A DNA stretch of 41,610 bases from a virus, in the IMG/VR virus record IMGVR_UViG_3300042988_000112, positions 1-41,610 of that record. One strand, given 5' to 3'. Below are positions 5,986-27,315 of the stretch, one piece after another (position 1 is the first letter of the stretch; every line of letters starts with the position of its first letter). The notes beneath the pieces were generated by a model. That model saw nothing but the letters and a program-made list of their open reading frames with translations, was not told where the DNA came from and made no database searches. The position numbers were made by a program, and so were the translations under genes.

Positions 5986-6380
5986 GAGATTACCCTTTCG
6001 GTTGTACTACGGTGGCTAAGAAGTTGTTGTCCACGTTCGCGAATTAACTCAGCTGCTGACTGCGGATCTTCTGCAAACATGGTTTCAAATTGTTCTGTGG
6101 TAATTGACTTTACAGTGTGAATAAAGTAAAGCTCGTAATTACGCTGTGGATTGAAACGTGCCCGCATGCTCATCATTTGAATCATTTTAGTGACTCGATG
6201 CACATGCTCGTTGTGCGGTTCTTCTTCCGGATTCTTGATGCGTTCAAACAAGTTCTCGTGCTCAAATGCATTACCCTCTTGCATGGACTCAGTGATATCC
6301 ACACAAGACTCAAGACCGTAACAGTCCCAAAAAATCAAAAAGACATTGGTGTCTTTGTAGTCAGGCAATGTGTTGCTCAT
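5982..6380 (-). CDS. Conserved phage protein of unknown function
   Basis: 132 residues starting MSNTLPDYKDTNVFLIFWDC. An upstream ATG at 6407 in the same frame is possible and would add nine residues. The segment VFLIFWDCYGLESCVDITE is followed by a His/Glu-rich stretch (EEEPHNEHVHRVTKMIQMMS) and a conserved-looking RARFNPQRNYELYFI. The pattern WDCYGLE I associate with hypothetical proteins of T4-like cyanophages. No catalytic residues can be assigned. The start overlaps the end of the 113-residue gene by 20 bases; the stop overlaps the next start by ATGA. Confidence 0.7.
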   Translation of the reverse strand: MSNTLPDYKDTNVFLIFWDCYGLESCVDITESMQEGNAFEHENLFERIKNPEEEPHNEHVHRVTKMIQMMSMRARFNPQRNYELYFIHTVKSITTEQFETMFAEDPQSAAELIRERGQQLLSHRSTTERVIS

Positions 6381-6702
6381 AGCTTTTAATAAAGTGTTTG
6401 CCAACATCCAGGCTCACGTAGTTGAGTCCTTGCATACCTTGCTCGCTGTAGCTGACATCTTTGCCAACTAGGCCAATGTTGGTTAGGTAGGCTTTTAATT
6501 CTTTTTCAAATTGGCGATCGGTGTAGATCAAACTATCTTTTTTTACGTTCCATGACGTGGGATCAAAATAGACACGCAGTTCGCCGAACTCTTCGCAGTC
6601 ACTGATGTAGGGCAGATCCATGCCAACAATCTTAACAGCTTTGGCAACGCTGGACCAGTAACCGCAACCGTTTGTGTTGAGTGTAACGTTGAGTTTGTGC
6701 AT
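6361..6702 (-). CDS. Conserved protein of unknown function
   Basis: 113 residues, starting MHKLNVTLNTNGCGYWSSVA. It mixes beta strands and helices, without membrane segment or recognisable motif. It is the first gene of a run that goes through the 132-, 59- and 89-residue genes to the terminator near 5500. A promoter-like TGTTATAAT lies about 30 bases upstream of ATG 6702 (6740-6732), the clearest signal for this operon. The 3' end overlaps the following gene. Function unknown. Confidence 0.7.
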   Translation of the reverse strand: MHKLNVTLNTNGCGYWSSVAKAVKIVGMDLPYISDCEEFGELRVYFDPTSWNVKKDSLIYTDRQFEKELKAYLTNIGLVGKDVSYSEQGMQGLNYVSLDVGKHFIKSYEQHIA

Positions 6703-6731
6703 CTTAGAACTTGGGTTGTTTCAATGTCTAA

Positions 6732-6740
6732 ATTATAACA
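6732..6740 (-). promoter_or_regulatory. Extended -10 promoter TGTTATAAT
   Basis: Minus-strand TGTTATAAT at 6740-6732 with no clear -35 box. It would start transcription near 6725 and give a leader of about 22 bases to the gene at 6702. Confidence 0.5.
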
Positions 6741-6763
6741 CAGAAATTGAGAATTTTTAGTTT

Positions 6764-6779
6764 GTTGTAAAAATACAAC
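6764..6779 (-). repeat. Perfect hairpin after the 41-residue gene
   Basis: GTTGTA-AAAA-TACAAC, six-base arms (6764-6769 and 6774-6779), right after the stop of the small membrane-protein gene. No T run follows on the minus strand, so it is a weak terminator or RNA-end stabiliser. A hairpin of the same form (six-base arms, AAAA loop) lies at 8717-8732. Confidence 0.5.
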
Positions 6780-6780
6780 A

Positions 6781-6906
6781 CTAAATGAATATCACTAGGT
6801 AAACCAGCCCCATTAAGACTATTAGTCCAACAGAGTCAGCGAAATCTTCCCCGGCTGTTTGCTTACGCTCGGGTTCAAGTGATCTAAGCCATTCTTTAAA
6901 GGTCAT
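6781..6906 (-). CDS. 41-residue single-span membrane protein
   Basis: Reading from ATG 6906 to TAG 6781-6783 gives MTFKEWLRSLEPERKQTAGE followed by DFADSVGLIVLMGLVYLVIFI. The N-terminal half is charged and amphipathic and the last 17 residues form one hydrophobic span. An extended -10 box TGCTATAAT ends five bases before the ATG, which strongly suggests its own, probably leaderless and early, mRNA. Small membrane proteins of this sort are common in early phage regions, where many act on host functions; that role here is inference. Confidence 0.65.
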   Translation of the reverse strand: MTFKEWLRSLEPERKQTAGEDFADSVGLIVLMGLVYLVIFI

Positions 6907-6922
6907 GCTGTATTATAGCATG
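6904..6922 (-). promoter_or_regulatory. Leaderless-type promoter inside an inverted repeat
   Basis: Minus strand CATGCT-ATAATAC-AGCATG: arms 6922-6917 and 6909-6904. TGCTATAAT (6920-6912) is an extended -10 box and the second arm contains the start codon ATG 6906. The arrangement resembles that at 37974-37991. Confidence 0.6.
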
Positions 6923-6929
6923 AAAATGG

Positions 6930-7163
6930 TTAATGAAGTGTAGCGTTTCCTGAAATATTGTCTACGTCTGTAATACCAAATACTGCAAGCATTTTACTTA
7001 CATTTTCCGGCAACTCAAATGGCACGTTGTCGGGCAACATAATGGACTTAACTTCGCCGTCGGGGCCAACAATAATGCAATAGTCATCATCGGCTAGCGT
7101 GTCTTCCATCATTTCAGCGAGCTCGTCGATTTGCTCTTCTTGTTGTTTAGTCAATTTGCTCAT
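6930..7163 (-). CDS. Small acidic protein of unknown function
   Basis: 77 residues, beginning MSKLTKQQEEQIDELAEMME with a strongly acidic helix (EEQIDELAEMMEDTLADDD) and then a beta-rich part (YCIIVGPDGEVKSIMLPDN). No metal or catalytic motif. GGAG lies eight bases before ATG 7163. The start lies within the 3' end of the HExxH gene above (17-base overlap), so it belongs to the lysis-type operon from 8682. Function unknown. Confidence 0.65.
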   Translation of the reverse strand: MSKLTKQQEEQIDELAEMMEDTLADDDYCIIVGPDGEVKSIMLPDNVPFELPENVSKMLAVFGITDVDNISGNATLH

Positions 7164-19402: not shown

Positions 19403-19846
19403 TTATCGTTTGCCGAGTGCTCTGCTAGCCATACCAGAAACAGTTTTTTCCGGTGCAGTTTGGCCAGCTTTAGTACCACCGTCGCCTTCACTTGAGAATG
19501 GATCATCGTCAAATGGAGTTAGGTAAACGTACTTAACAATTGAAGTGCCGCCAACGCTTGGGTCGTGTACTTCGTCGTCTTTAATGTCTGCAATTAAATT
19601 CTTAACAGCTTCGTTACTCTTGCGAGCGTTTTCCAATGCTTCTGCGTTAAACATTTCGCCACCTGGCAAACGCTTGATTAAGTTCACTAAAGCGTCAACA
19701 CGAACTCGCGGAACTGAGTGTCCGTGAGCTCTATTGCGTAGTTCTTCGAGGGCAGTTAAGAGGACACTGTCGCCGCGTGATTCGGCTTCGTCCTCAAGCA
19801 TTTCCCCGAGGCCACTGCTTTCTGTGACAAATTCGCTAAAACGCAT
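19403..19846 (-). CDS. Conserved phage protein, probably virion-linked
   Basis: 147 residues starting MRFSEFVTESSGLGEMLEDE, a type of start seen in T4-like cyanophage proteins of unknown role. It contains an amphipathic helix and acidic stretches (DIKDDEVHDP, FDDDPFSSEGDGG) and ends in basic residues. ATG 19846 overlaps the stop of the 235-residue gene by one base (TAATG). No enzymatic motif. A structural or scaffold role is a guess from the neighbours. Confidence 0.65.
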   Translation of the reverse strand: MRFSEFVTESSGLGEMLEDEAESRGDSVLLTALEELRNRAHGHSVPRVRVDALVNLIKRLPGGEMFNAEALENARKSNEAVKNLIADIKDDEVHDPSVGGTSIVKYVYLTPFDDDPFSSEGDGGTKAGQTAPEKTVSGMASRALGKR

Positions 19847-23033: not shown

Positions 23034-23064
23034 AAAAGGGGCAAATTACTTGTTAAAAAGAGCC
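23034..23064 (-). terminator. Weak terminator after the fused nucleotidyltransferase gene
   Basis: Minus strand GGGC, about 20 bases, GCCCC then a T run (TTTTTTATC) around the stop of the gene ending 23046. The stem is only four pairs, so it is weak. Confidence 0.35.
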
Positions 23065-24923
23065 CGACTAAACTGCCCTCTGTTAACCAATTTAATTAAC
23101 CCATTGGGGCTCGGGAATACAAATCCTTCGCCGCCGGCTTGCCCATTAACAGACTGCTGTACCCCTTGTACTTGCTGCTCAAGTTGCTGCACTAGATTTA
23201 ATTTGTACGCATATATTGAGTTCCAAATTGCTTTTAGTCCTGCGTATCCTTGGCTTTCGTGTACCTGGCCTTCGCCATCTGTGGTAAACAAACTGCCCGA
23301 ATAGTCGTCGCCAACTAGGGCGTTATATTGTTTACTGCTAACGTTGCCTTTCATCCAATCATGTAAGTCTTGATTGGTTTGGCAAGTGATCTTCTTGTTA
23401 AAGTATGTTTTAATTAGAGCTTTAGTGCTAGATGGAATGTTAACAAACAAGTCATCCACTGCTGTGCCGTACTTTTCAACTGCCGCTGCCGCTGCTTTGC
23501 TTGCAGATACTGGGTCACGCAAACTGAATCTAATGCCTAGTCCGGGCTTGATAATAGTAACGCCACCCGGTACTGTAACTAACCCTTTGCCATCCCATTC
23601 ACTGGCTGTGCCGCCTAGTTCACCAAAATGCTGGTGGACCACAATGCCGCCACTGCTGCCCTTGATTGTCTGTCCAATTTGGCTCTGCACAGGAACATGA
23701 TATTCCACAGTGTTAGGCTTGAATACGTAGTTGCCTTTAACAGGATTTAATGCCCCTGCCCACAGCAAATCTCCCCAAAAGAATCCTTCACCTTTAACCA
23801 CAGCATCTAGCCCTGCCCAAATAGATGCTAGCTTAGTGTACAAATCAGGACGCATGGTTCCGCTAGGCTTAGTGGAATCGTACTGTTGCCAGTCTTGTGG
23901 GCTAGTTGCAAGTATACGCTTATCAAACATGTACTTGTCCATAATAGCCAGCTTACCTTCTGGGGTACGCCCAAATATGAGTGCAGGAAACCCGTCCCAC
24001 TTCACTGTTACTTTAGATGGGTTTGCAATTACACCACCAAGTGACTGTAATGCCATTGCCGCGGCATTGCTACCATCAAAGATACTGTCCTCAGGATGCG
24101 GGGTACGTCCTGTGGTGTCGTGATTTTCTTTTAACGACTTAACAAAGGCAAACTTAGGGCTTTCTTCCATTTGGTTTAGCCAAGTCTTTGTGCCCGGGTA
24201 AACATCTTCTGGAAGTTCTAGTAATCCTGCTTGTGCATCTTGTCTAGCTTGTGCTAGTTTGCCTTCGCGGTCAGGATCATCTGCAAGTCTAGCCATAATA
24301 GAGCTGACGCTATCTAAATCTTTTTCTTTGGCCTTGGGGCCTAGTAGGATTTTAGCAACTTGTCTACGGGACTTTCCCACAACTTCTTCTGTGTTGCGGT
24401 CAACTAATTTGCCACCAAATGCGTCGAACTTTAGTCCCATGTGTTTGGCAATGCTGCTCATTAGAATAAAGTTGCTGCTGCCTTTAAAGCCAGGCTGTGC
24501 ATACATGCCACGTGGTCCATGTTGGTGCCATGGAGCAACAGATGCCGCATCGTCAATGACCATAATGTCAACTTGTGCTAGCTTTGAGTCACCGCTTTGA
24601 TCTTTGTAGGGTACGCCTACATGAACATTACGCCCTTTGGTTACTGCTTTATAGCCACGTTGCTCAAGATACTTTTGAAGTTCTTTCTTTGCATCCTGTG
24701 AGTTGTTGGACTGGAAATACTCAATAACATCAAAGGAGTCTACCATTAAGTCGATATCGCCTGATTCATCTTTAAACCCGGCACTACCAATGTCCATTTG
24801 TAGATTGGATAGTAACTCTTCTGGTAATGCTTTTTTGATCACCGAAACAACACCGGGTACGTCATTACGTGCTATCGGTGTTGCGTTCTTTATTGCTCCA
24901 TTGCCTGTACTAGTCTGGCTCAT
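23046..24923 (-). CDS. Two-domain nucleotidyltransferase-like protein
   Basis: 625 residues. Near 45-60 IGSAGFKDESGDIDLMVD is the polymerase-beta-type nucleotidyltransferase signature (Gly-Ser, then Asp56 and Asp58), with the third Asp119 in AQVDIMVIDD. In the second half VTVKWDGFPALIFG (KWDG at 308-311) looks like the KxDG of DNA/RNA ligases and capping enzymes, followed by GEGFFWGDLLWAG (379-390) and SGGIVVHQHF (424-433) in the positions of later motifs. Phage annotations call the second half a conserved family of unknown function (I believe DUF6267). ATG 24923 overlaps the stop above by ATGA. Substrate unknown. Confidence 0.6.
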   Translation of the reverse strand: MSQTSTGNGAIKNATPIARNDVPGVVSVIKKALPEELLSNLQMDIGSAGFKDESGDIDLMVDSFDVIEYFQSNNSQDAKKELQKYLEQRGYKAVTKGRNVHVGVPYKDQSGDSKLAQVDIMVIDDAASVAPWHQHGPRGMYAQPGFKGSSNFILMSSIAKHMGLKFDAFGGKLVDRNTEEVVGKSRRQVAKILLGPKAKEKDLDSVSSIMARLADDPDREGKLAQARQDAQAGLLELPEDVYPGTKTWLNQMEESPKFAFVKSLKENHDTTGRTPHPEDSIFDGSNAAAMALQSLGGVIANPSKVTVKWDGFPALIFGRTPEGKLAIMDKYMFDKRILATSPQDWQQYDSTKPSGTMRPDLYTKLASIWAGLDAVVKGEGFFWGDLLWAGALNPVKGNYVFKPNTVEYHVPVQSQIGQTIKGSSGGIVVHQHFGELGGTASEWDGKGLVTVPGGVTIIKPGLGIRFSLRDPVSASKAAAAAVEKYGTAVDDLFVNIPSSTKALIKTYFNKKITCQTNQDLHDWMKGNVSSKQYNALVGDDYSGSLFTTDGEGQVHESQGYAGLKAIWNSIYAYKLNLVQQLEQQVQGVQQSVNGQAGGEGFVFPSPNGLIKLVNRGQFSRALFNK

Positions 24924-25552
24924 CTCTTAGATTTCATCTTGCGCCATAAAACTTCTGCTAAGTCGATGCTTTCGGCTACTGGTGGTTGAGTTTGTATCTT
25001 TTGTGGTATTTTAGCATCAGTTGGATTATTTGAGTCCATTTTTTGGACGCCTGTACTAACTGGTTCGTCCAGAGTTGGTGCCGCTGCGGCTGTTGGTGCA
25101 GCAGCTTGCTGGCTAGATTTTTTAGCCAATGTTGCATCAACTGTTTTCTTAACACTGGTAAGATCACGAGTTCTAAGAGTCGGTATAATTTTATTAATCT
25201 GTCCAACGCCTATTTTGCTTTGCTGTGCTGCAACTGCTGGTGCTGCAACAGGAGTTATAGGTTCCGGTGCAGGGGTTGGTGCAGGGGTTGGTGCAGGGGT
25301 TGGTGCAGGGGTCGGTACAGGTTGTGTTACCCCTGGGATGTTTTTATTTTGGCGCTTGTATGCCGGAATGTTATAATTAACTGGCGGGGCTGTTAGTGCA
25401 GGTGCTTGTGTAGCTGGGTCTTCATCTGGGACATTTGCGTTGGCAGCGGCGTTAGCGTTAATTGCTGTCGCAACCTGCGGAGCTCCAAGCCCTTTTGCTA
25501 CTCCGCCCCAGAATGTGCTCGGTGCTTCGAGCATAATATCATTAATTTTCAT
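24920..25552 (-). CDS. Pro/Ala-rich conserved phage protein
   Basis: 210 residues starting MKINDIMLEAPSTFWGGVAK, with a Thr-Pro-Ala-Pro repeat at about 79-94 encoded by a 12-base tandem repeat, and an end ESIDLAEVLWRKMKSKR that I recall as a C-terminal motif in related phages. The middle is disordered. It probably carries short binding motifs at both ends joined by a flexible linker. Its stop overlaps the next gene by ATGA and its start lies 11 bases inside the 83-residue gene. AGGAG lies upstream. Structural or assembly role inferred. Confidence 0.6.
   Translation of the reverse strand: MKINDIMLEAPSTFWGGVAKGLGAPQVATAINANAAANANVPDEDPATQAPALTAPPVNYNIPAYKRQNKNIPGVTQPVPTPAPTPAPTPAPTPAPEPITPVAAPAVAAQQSKIGVGQINKIIPTLRTRDLTSVKKTVDATLAKKSSQQAAAPTAAAAPTLDEPVSTGVQKMDSNNPTDAKIPQKIQTQPPVAESIDLAEVLWRKMKSKR
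25266..25320 (+). repeat. 12-base tandem repeat coding Thr-Pro-Ala-Pro
   Basis: Four copies of ggtgcaggggtt (last one ending tc) at 25266-25313 and a partial fifth copy. Such a repeat can change copy number by slippage, changing the length of the Pro-rich linker in steps of four residues without frame loss. Confidence 0.85.
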
Positions 25553-25793
25553 TACTACGTTGTCTCCTGATTCCTCGAGTGAATTTAGCAGGATCTTGTG
25601 CTCTAATGCTGTTTAAGAGGCGGCGCTCTAACTCAGCACTGGTTTCAGCATCGTAATTTTCCTTGATAAAATTTATCAAGTTAATAGCACCTTGAATAAC
25701 ATGGGTTGCACGACTTTCGACTAAGCTAGCCTGATCTTTAGCAACAGGCATGCTTGCAAGTTCGTCTAAAATGCTACGAGTACGCTTCTGCAA
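25542..25793 (-). CDS. Small conserved helical protein
   Basis: 83 residues if started at TTG 25793, which lies eight bases after GGAG; a GTG at 25802 is in frame but touches the GGAG directly. The sequence QKRTRSILDELASMPVAKDQ continues into helices (THVIQGAINLINFIKENYDA) and a basic C-terminus (RGIRRQRSNEN). I recall no function. A late promoter CATAAATA precedes it, so it is the first gene of the late unit 25793-23046. Confidence 0.6.
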   Translation of the reverse strand: MQKRTRSILDELASMPVAKDQASLVESRATHVIQGAINLINFIKENYDAETSAELERRLLNSIRAQDPAKFTRGIRRQRSNEN

Positions 25794-25814
25794 GATATTC
25801 ACTCCAATTTAGTG

Positions 25815-25825: not shown

Positions 25826-25874
25826 TAGCAATATCTTGCTACTACTTGGGAAATTGTGAGACTCACCCACAATT
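25826..25874 (-). repeat. Two hairpins between helicase and late promoter
   Basis: Minus strand: AATTGTG-GGTGAGTCT-CACAATT (arms 25874-25868, 25858-25852), overlapping the gp41 stop, then TAGCAA-GATA-TTGCTA (arms 25841-25836, 25831-25826). No T run follows either. They may mark the RNA end of the helicase transcript. Confidence 0.5.
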
Positions 25875-27315
25875 ATTCCCCTTTCTTGATGCCCGCTATC
25901 ATTCTTTTTAGCGTTGTGCTTTGTGCTTCACCTGATACTTTAGCAGGTTGCTCCCATGCAGGAGTGCCTGTGGCTCGTTCAAACTTAGTTGGCCCTTCGT
26001 CCTTGTCTGAGCTAGCAGCAGGAGCAGGAGTGCTCTTGATACGATTCATGATGCTGTTAACTAAAGGTGGGCCACCGCCGTTGTTTTCAGGGATACCTGG
26101 GTCGCTGATACGCATAGTTTCGATGTTGTACTCTAGGTCAATCTTTTGTCCAACACCTGTTGAGCTACGTGACTTCATACATTGAAGCTGATATTTGCCA
26201 CGTTCTTTCATAGCACGACTTGTAAAGATACCAAACACGTTGTCAGCAGTGTTAATCTTAGAAATACCACCACTAATATGACTGTGGTCAAATTCGACTT
26301 CTTCAACTGCACTACGGTTCAACTGCGATGCTGTAACAAACAGCACACCTAATTCTTTGGCTAAGTTACGCAATTCTTCCGACACATACTTGTCTTTAAC
26401 AAACAAGTCGTTGGGGCTAACTTTGGCACTCACAGGCATAATCAAGTCCAAGTAGTCGACCATAATAAAGTCAACAGAATTGCCTGTTTGGATTTGATAC
26501 TCTTTGATAAAGCTACGAATGTCGTTTACGTTGCTTTGTGCAGGAAGGCCTTTGATGCGATATTTGCCGCTCTTCTTACCAACCATCTTAACTTTAAGTT
26601 CAGTGGTTTCAATGTCCTTGCGAATGTCCTTGGTGCCCATGCTTGTTAACATAGCATCAGTACGCAAAGAACACAGTTCTTCACTAAGTTCTAGCGTAAT
26701 GTAAACACCGCTTAGGCCCATTTGTAACCAGCTGAGTGCGATGTTCATCATAACCAAGGATTTACCTGAACCAGATCCACCTGCAAAAATGTTTAGTTCT
26801 CCTCGGCTAAATCCGCCGTATAGCAGTCTATCCATCTGTGGCCAACCTGTGCTTACTTGTCCACCACTGTTGAAGTATTTGTTAATACGTTCACTGGGGT
26901 TTGCAAAGTAATCAGTGCCTAGGTCTTTGGTTAAGGAGATTTGCACTGCATCTTTGATCAGCTTTTCAATTGGAGCAAAGTCTCCATTTTCGATCATGTC
27001 AGCTGACTTTAGAATAGCACGTTCTAGTTCTTGACGTTTAGTAAAGTTCTCAAACTCATTGATAAACCATTCAGCATGTTCCTGCATTTCGGTAGCAGGC
27101 TTTAGTTCAATGCTAGTGGTCGCTCTAATTTGTTCGGGTGTTGGTAGCGTTTTATATTTGTCGCTGTACTCAGTAATGAACGTTGCGGTCTCTCGTAGAC
27201 TACGATCAAAGTTCTCTGGGTTGTAAATATTTTGCACACGCACAAAGTTTTGGGCGTCTTGCAACATCATCTCTAAAAATAGTTTTTGTATTTCTGCGTT
27301 ATATTCTTTATTCAT
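25873..27315 (-). CDS. 41: Replicative DNA helicase, T4 gp41 / DnaB type
   Basis: 480 residues. N-terminal helical domain (1-130), then the RecA-fold ATPase: GWPQMDRLLYGGFSRGELNI, Walker A GGSGSGKS at 179-186, Walker B FIMVDYLDL at 283-291, then FVTASQLNRS (sensor Gln) and GISKINTADNVFGI. This hexameric helicase unwinds the lagging strand ahead of the fork with gp61. The C-terminal 60 residues are disordered and Pro/Ala-rich. It follows the primase gene by two bases. No good Shine-Dalgarno is seen before ATG 27315, fitting coupling. Confidence 0.92.
   Translation of the reverse strand: MNKEYNAEIQKLFLEMMLQDAQNFVRVQNIYNPENFDRSLRETATFITEYSDKYKTLPTPEQIRATTSIELKPATEMQEHAEWFINEFENFTKRQELERAILKSADMIENGDFAPIEKLIKDAVQISLTKDLGTDYFANPSERINKYFNSGGQVSTGWPQMDRLLYGGFSRGELNIFAGGSGSGKSLVMMNIALSWLQMGLSGVYITLELSEELCSLRTDAMLTSMGTKDIRKDIETTELKVKMVGKKSGKYRIKGLPAQSNVNDIRSFIKEYQIQTGNSVDFIMVDYLDLIMPVSAKVSPNDLFVKDKYVSEELRNLAKELGVLFVTASQLNRSAVEEVEFDHSHISGGISKINTADNVFGIFTSRAMKERGKYQLQCMKSRSSTGVGQKIDLEYNIETMRISDPGIPENNGGGPPLVNSIMNRIKSTPAPAASSDKDEGPTKFERATGTPAWEQPAKVSGEAQSTTLKRMIAGIKKGE

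Follow-up and report, generated by a model that had tools for sequence, protein, structure and literature searches.

In a virus-derived stretch of 41,610 nucleotides (IMG/VR record IMGVR_UViG_3300042988_000112, positions 1 to 41,610; the whole stretch is called the window below), we analysed an open reading frame (23046..24923, minus strand, 625 amino acids) that fuses two conserved enzyme domains. The first, a nucleotidyltransferase, is of the DNA polymerase beta/X type; the second belongs to the Pfam family DUF6267 and distantly resembles nucleic-acid ligases. These two domains are a real pair. We give about an even chance to the reading that they form a two-step fill-and-seal enzyme for the repair of nucleic-acid ends, which is packaged into the phage head in many relatives. 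All features of the gene and of its neighbours located below lie on the minus strand.

The nucleotidyltransferase domain (residues 1-250, 24174..24923) yielded a high-confidence structure model (predicted local distance difference test, pLDDT, 90.5). Using Foldseek against the PDB, polymerase lambda was the best match (E 1.3e-7, probability 1.00), and the best 50 matches were all polymerase lambda entries except for one TdT chimera (template modelling (TM) scores 0.43-0.49). A Pfam scan of 78 family members gave the polymerase-beta palm and thumb as top families, with only three members each at threshold and palm E values as low as 6.5e-4. The sequence-only reading had proposed a polymerase-beta-type enzyme with the signature of minimal nucleotidyltransferases (MNT). 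The fold match, together with the invariant catalytic residues described below, bears out the polymerase-beta assignment and places the domain nearer to polymerase X than to MNT enzymes. Compared with polymerase X and its DNA ligase partner, the first half shares the polymerase fold and the catalytic aspartates, but an 8-kDa lyase domain was not seen and the DUF6267 domain is fused. An MNT-type toxin-antitoxin system was considered and set aside, given the polymerase-X fold and no HEPN partner seen. None of 50,697 sequenced phage records matched the nucleotidyltransferase half.

Both halves carry catalytic motifs at the positions proposed from the sequence: IGSAGFKDESGDIDLMVD at residues 45-62 (24738..24791), Asp119 (24567..24569) and KWDG at residues 308-311 (23991..24002). 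Taken as bare patterns these are weak, as shuffles of the same protein produce KxDG in 30% and GS-x7-13-DxD in 13% of cases. It is their conservation that makes them real. Across the 78 relatives of the first half, just four columns show no variation at all, namely G55, D56, D58 and D119. In the second half, 126 relatives down to 20% identity all retain K308, D310, G318, Y408 and H430, and H276, E278, D279, K330, D385, E599, G600 and K611 are conserved at 97-99%. K308, K330, D385, E599, G600 and K611 correspond, in that order, to ligase motifs I, Ia, III, IV and V. The core positions K308-x-D-G, D385, EG599-600 and K611 are kept in 98-100% of the relatives. Outside motif I, the candidate motifs are Ia at K330 (23934..23936, 124/126), III at G384-D385 (23769..23774, Asp in 125/126), IV at E599-G-F-V (23118..23129, Glu and Gly in 125/126) and V at K611-L-V-N-R615 (23079..23093, Lys in 124/126).

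The second half (DUF6267 ligase-like domain, residues 276-625, 23049..24098) was assigned through Pfam, its structure model and fold matches. Residues 276-624 match DUF6267 (PF19782) with an E value of 2.5e-28 and 99.9 bits against a curated cut-off of 27, covering profile positions 6-373 of 376. The half also matches phrog_455, whose function is not annotated. A search with a related cyanophage member found DUF6267 in 468 phage records, nearly all of them cyanophages. Pfam states no function for the family and none of the papers searched mentions it; both the fusion to a polymerase-X-like domain and the ligase assignment are new here. The model of this half is confident (pLDDT 93.7, predicted TM score 0.89). 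Among predicted viral structures, the ~15 best matches appear to belong to the family itself, and several of them bear the annotation of a cytidyltransferase-like domain. Named matches ranking after these include phage RNA ligases, from Agrobacterium phage Atu_ph07 (E 5e-4, probability 0.92) and from Lactococcus phage phiQ1 (E 0.01, probability 0.97), followed by giant-virus RNA ligases and phage DNA ligases. In the PDB, where no match reached significance, most of the top 30 were ligases: human DNA ligase I, which came up most often, a tRNA ligase, an archaeal RNA ligase and the African swine fever virus ligase.

A closer comparison was possible with T4 RNA ligase 1 (gp63, rnlA). Both proteins have KxDG as motif I and EG[FY]V as motif IV, with a lysine 12-13 residues further on (the spacing from the motif IV glutamate to the motif V lysine is 12 residues here and 13 in T4). 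When profiles of 17 T4 proteins were compared using hhalign, T4 RNA ligase 1 came out on top, aligned at motif IV (EGFV with EGYV at 227) with an E value of 0.033, which is suggestive only. GIVVH (residues 426-430) was set aside as a candidate motif IV in favour of EGFV, which together with K611 occupies the neighbouring strands where these motifs are expected and aligns with T4 RNA ligase 1.

Several results weigh against a ligase identity. The best ligase in the PDB fold search (E 0.08, TM ~0.2) is not significant, and the assignment is therefore a remote one. No significant sequence or profile similarity to the T4 ligases was found. The ligase families PF09511, PF09414 and PF01068 gave no match for this protein and were absent from the 25 families listed for the 126 members; PDB sequence searches with the protein and both profiles returned nothing relevant. 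In addition, motif III carries Asp where ligases have Glu, the second lysine of motif V is absent, being replaced by V or I, ~165 extra residues are inserted ahead of motif IV, and only a short helix follows motif V. The proposal of a ligase-like second half thus holds for K308 as motif I and for nearest folds that include ligases, but at a remote level; the model did not come out unlike ligases. We consider it very probable that DUF6267 belongs, remotely, to the ligase superfamily. The suggestion that one protein could activate and transfer nucleotides was a sound one.

Whether other ligases are present in the same phages bears on the substrate. Five complete Kyanoviridae genomes with DUF6267 (OR473000, GU071095, OR032571, MZ577098 and NC_015285) gave no match to PF09511 and PF09414, both RNA ligase families, or to PF01068, the ATP-dependent DNA ligase, so DUF6267 could serve as their ligase. 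Against this, ligases of the ordinary DNA or RNA type occur in some phages of the group. An ordinary DNA ligase can even share a contig with the pair (G004, G013), which argues for a separate role of DUF6267 there.

We regard DNA and RNA substrates as about equally likely, and a function confined to either one as rather unlikely. The RNA repair given as an example in the sequence-only reading is plausible. An RNA-specific enzyme would restore lost nucleotides and reseal tRNAs cut by host anticodon nucleases. The predicted phage RNA repair system of RlaP and RNA ligase (PMC7824862) is a described precedent, in which a nucleotidyltransferase of the Pol-beta superfamily likewise stands beside a ligase. 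RNA ligases are among the nearest viral folds outside the family, a DNA ligase is already encoded by several phages of the group, and the complete cyanophage genomes with DUF6267 lack the RNA ligase families PF09511 and PF09414. However, the nucleotidyltransferase is of another family than RlaP and nearest to polymerase X, mostly DNA enzymes. No RlaP match was found for this protein at E 10, nor among the families listed for the 78 members. The ligase-like domain falls outside the known RNA ligase models, and an end-healing kinase or phosphatase is not a fixed member of the cassette.

A DNA-specific enzyme would fill gaps and seal nicks of the incoming genome, as polymerase X and DNA ligase do. 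The top fold for the first half (polymerase lambda) and the commonest PDB match for the second (DNA ligase I) agree with it, the five Kyanoviridae genomes have no match to the DNA ligase model PF01068, and packaging alongside DNA would suit such a role. Here too the evidence is divided, since the pair-bearing contigs G004 and G013 can have an ordinary DNA ligase, no DNA-binding OB domain follows motif V, and the strongest viral fold match outside the family is an RNA ligase.

The link between the two domains extends well beyond the window. Among loci found with the nucleotidyltransferase query alone, all 74 with enough downstream sequence (74/74; six further loci end too early) have a DUF6267 gene downstream or fused. 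The genes are directly adjacent in ~69 loci, fused in 29 and separated by a gap in ~30, counts that come from overlapping loci and are hence not independent. The tree of the ligase domain calls for 5 changes of the fused state, and well-supported branches force at least 3 of these. Most of the gaps are occupied by the gene of a second nucleotidyltransferase-like protein, ~339 amino acids long, with the motifs GRPTGSSAYHE...YGDID and QIDFM. This intervening protein (for example L183:5569-6582 and L023:5841-6947) reaches no Pfam cut-off and has an N-terminus resembling a capsid-targeting sequence. One cassette encodes a third nucleotidyltransferase (PF01909, L158:2729-3463), the Pfam family that gp156 of cyanophage S-CREM2 also matches, and one locus has two DUF6267 paralogues (L058:3959-5167 and 5992-7071).

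In cyanophages, DUF6267 occurs without a polymerase-X-like partner, and the next gene often encodes a HIGH-type cytidylyltransferase. In some large phages DUF6267 is C-terminally fused to a cytidylyltransferase-like (PF01467) domain, as in L094, L095 and L096 (C-terminal 210 amino acids) and in BFVD A0A0M6VVW4 of S-PM2. This neighbourhood, with a cytidylyltransferase related to NMNAT (PMC10665884), favours another explanation, namely that the DUF6267 lysine nucleotidylates a protein or small molecule (for example in nicotinamide adenine dinucleotide metabolism), with the nucleotidyltransferases as partners and no role in nucleic-acid repair. The divergence of motif V and of the C-terminal part from nucleic-acid ligases would also fit. 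We nevertheless find this quite unlikely, as the polymerase-X-like partner found here has a palm and a thumb, which together are a nucleic-acid fold, and the nearest folds of DUF6267 are polynucleotide ligases.

The second line of evidence concerns packaging. In T4, gp21 cuts head proteins after L/I-x-E, and ten residues of IPIII are enough for packaging (PMC9026906). Most unfused relatives of both domains have N-termini of this kind, which resemble MYLYE/GGNAI in nucleotidyltransferases, MKTYTEYLVE/AAEG or MLEFISTLFE/AA in ligase genes and MKIRDIILE/GGWD in the second nucleotidyltransferase (the slash follows the glutamate of the motif). The pattern [LIVMF]xE[AGS] was found within the first 25 residues of 57/63 nucleotidyltransferases (90%), 89/134 ligases (66%) and 13/13 second nucleotidyltransferases, compared with 14% of other genes of the loci, although the sequences are related and these counts overstate independence. 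Many cyanophage DUF6267 members begin directly at the core, and the model shows the segment as disordered, which places the tag outside the fold. Between the two halves, [LI]xE is present in 19/19 distinct fused proteins versus 6.4 expected by shuffling. Here this possible prohead-protease site is L264-K265-E266 (24126..24134), likewise disordered in the model. Like the T4 internal head proteins IPIII and Alt, most unfused relatives have short N-termini ending in [LI]xE before A, G or S, but the enzymes are of other families and the copy in the window has no N-terminal tag.

Published virion proteomes touch on related proteins. The cyanophage T4-GC190 cytidylyltransferase was detected in S-SM1 virions (PMC3037559); in Syn33 it adjoins DUF6267 and is tagged alike. 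The S-CREM2 cytidylyltransferase gp154 was found in S-CREM2 virions together with gp156, with the authors' caution that such proteins could be carry-over from purification (PMC10665884). We found gp154 to be tagged at its N-terminus (MKNFSSFLTE/A) and gp156 to match a nucleotidyltransferase model. Genes for the prohead protease S77 and for a gp23-like capsid protein were found in each of the three complete phage records and in every one of the four contigs of at least 190 kb that were searched; nothing above cut-off was detected for either in a 158-kb contig or in shorter fragments.

Other findings speak against packaging. The protein in the window bears no capsid tag at its own N-terminus, and [LI]xE is found only at the junction. 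The S-CREM2 DUF6267 protein gp87, which is untagged, is absent from the published virion protein list (PMC10665884); packaging therefore does not extend to every member of the family. Neither the prohead protease nor the major capsid gene was found in the 41.6-kb record, which is a fragment. The seven protease-bearing records are without the paired nucleotidyltransferase, and the protease was therefore not seen in one record with this exact pair. The suggestion that the enzyme is carried in the particle accordingly gains ground for the family, through the capsid-targeting-like N-termini. It does not do so for the copy in the window, which has an untagged N-terminus.

For the fill-and-seal reading, we propose the following course. 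The polymerase-X-like domain would add or fill in nucleotides at a broken 3' end, with metal bound by D56, D58 and D119. The DUF6267 domain would load a nucleotide on Lys308, transfer it to the 5' end and seal the break. In most relatives the two domains come from separate, adjacent genes. Since the products of these genes start with T4-type capsid-targeting-like sequences, the tagged enzymes are probably loaded into the head, where the prohead protease would trim them after [LI]xE. Once packaged, they would be ejected with the DNA and could work in the new host without delay. Where the enzymes are fused, the second tag, that of the ligase gene, would have become an internal linker. As this linker still holds the protease motif, the protein may be split into its two enzymes during head maturation.

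The start of the fused gene overlaps the stop (ATGA) of an upstream open reading frame of 210 amino acids (24920..25552) that is low in complexity and begins with a capsid-targeting-like MKINDIMLE/A (25526..25552), the same kind of N-terminus as on unfused relatives. Comparable tagged upstream frames occur in relatives, and in some relatives a tag-bearing stretch of this kind continues in frame into the nucleotidyltransferase. Further upstream lie a gene for a small virion structural protein (25542..25802, phrog_11854, E 1e-16), a conserved neighbour with a relative near 111/164 ligase genes, and a DnaB-like replicative helicase gene (25873..27315, phrog_19, E 9e-71). The neighbours thus combine replication genes (helicase/primase) with virion genes, and the late operon supposed in the sequence-only reading was not confirmed. 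Virion-gene neighbours and capsid-targeting-like N-termini, with catalysis so far predicted, would also be expected of a catalytically inert head-internal protein that retains an old fold. We hold this to be highly improbable, because such a protein would not need catalytic positions that are invariant or nearly so in both halves down to 20% identity.

Elsewhere in the window, the open reading frame 19403-19846 has another capsid-tag-like N-terminus (MRFSEFVTE/S), as does a HAD-type phosphatase-like protein beside DUF6267 in another locus (L197:7427-8029, MKSFLQYLEE/S). Scans for defence systems (PADLOC) and against NCBIfam gave no match. A cellular origin was set aside, as matches in genome collections were scattered and mostly on metagenome-bin contigs, which are probably phage.

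These results offer a testable function for a Pfam family without one. The family occurs in 468 phage records, the majority from cyanophages of ecological importance, and is now tied to a nucleotidyltransferase family seen here solely in uncultivated viruses. DUF6267 may be a possible source of end joining for cyanophages, given that the five searched complete genomes matched no standard DNA or RNA ligase model. If packaged, the enzymes would give phages a means of repairing nucleic acids as soon as infection begins, and the prohead protease would have a second task, that of separating a fused enzyme pair. Only tentatively do we go further: DUF6267 could be an unrecognised class of the ligase superfamily in hundreds of cyanophage genomes which, with its polymerase-X-like partner, makes up a self-contained fill-and-seal kit; this kit would be packaged in T4-like heads, either as a protease-cleavable polyprotein or as individual tagged enzymes, and would enter the host along with the genome. 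DUF6267 could also be the missing ligase of those cyanophages that have no ordinary one.
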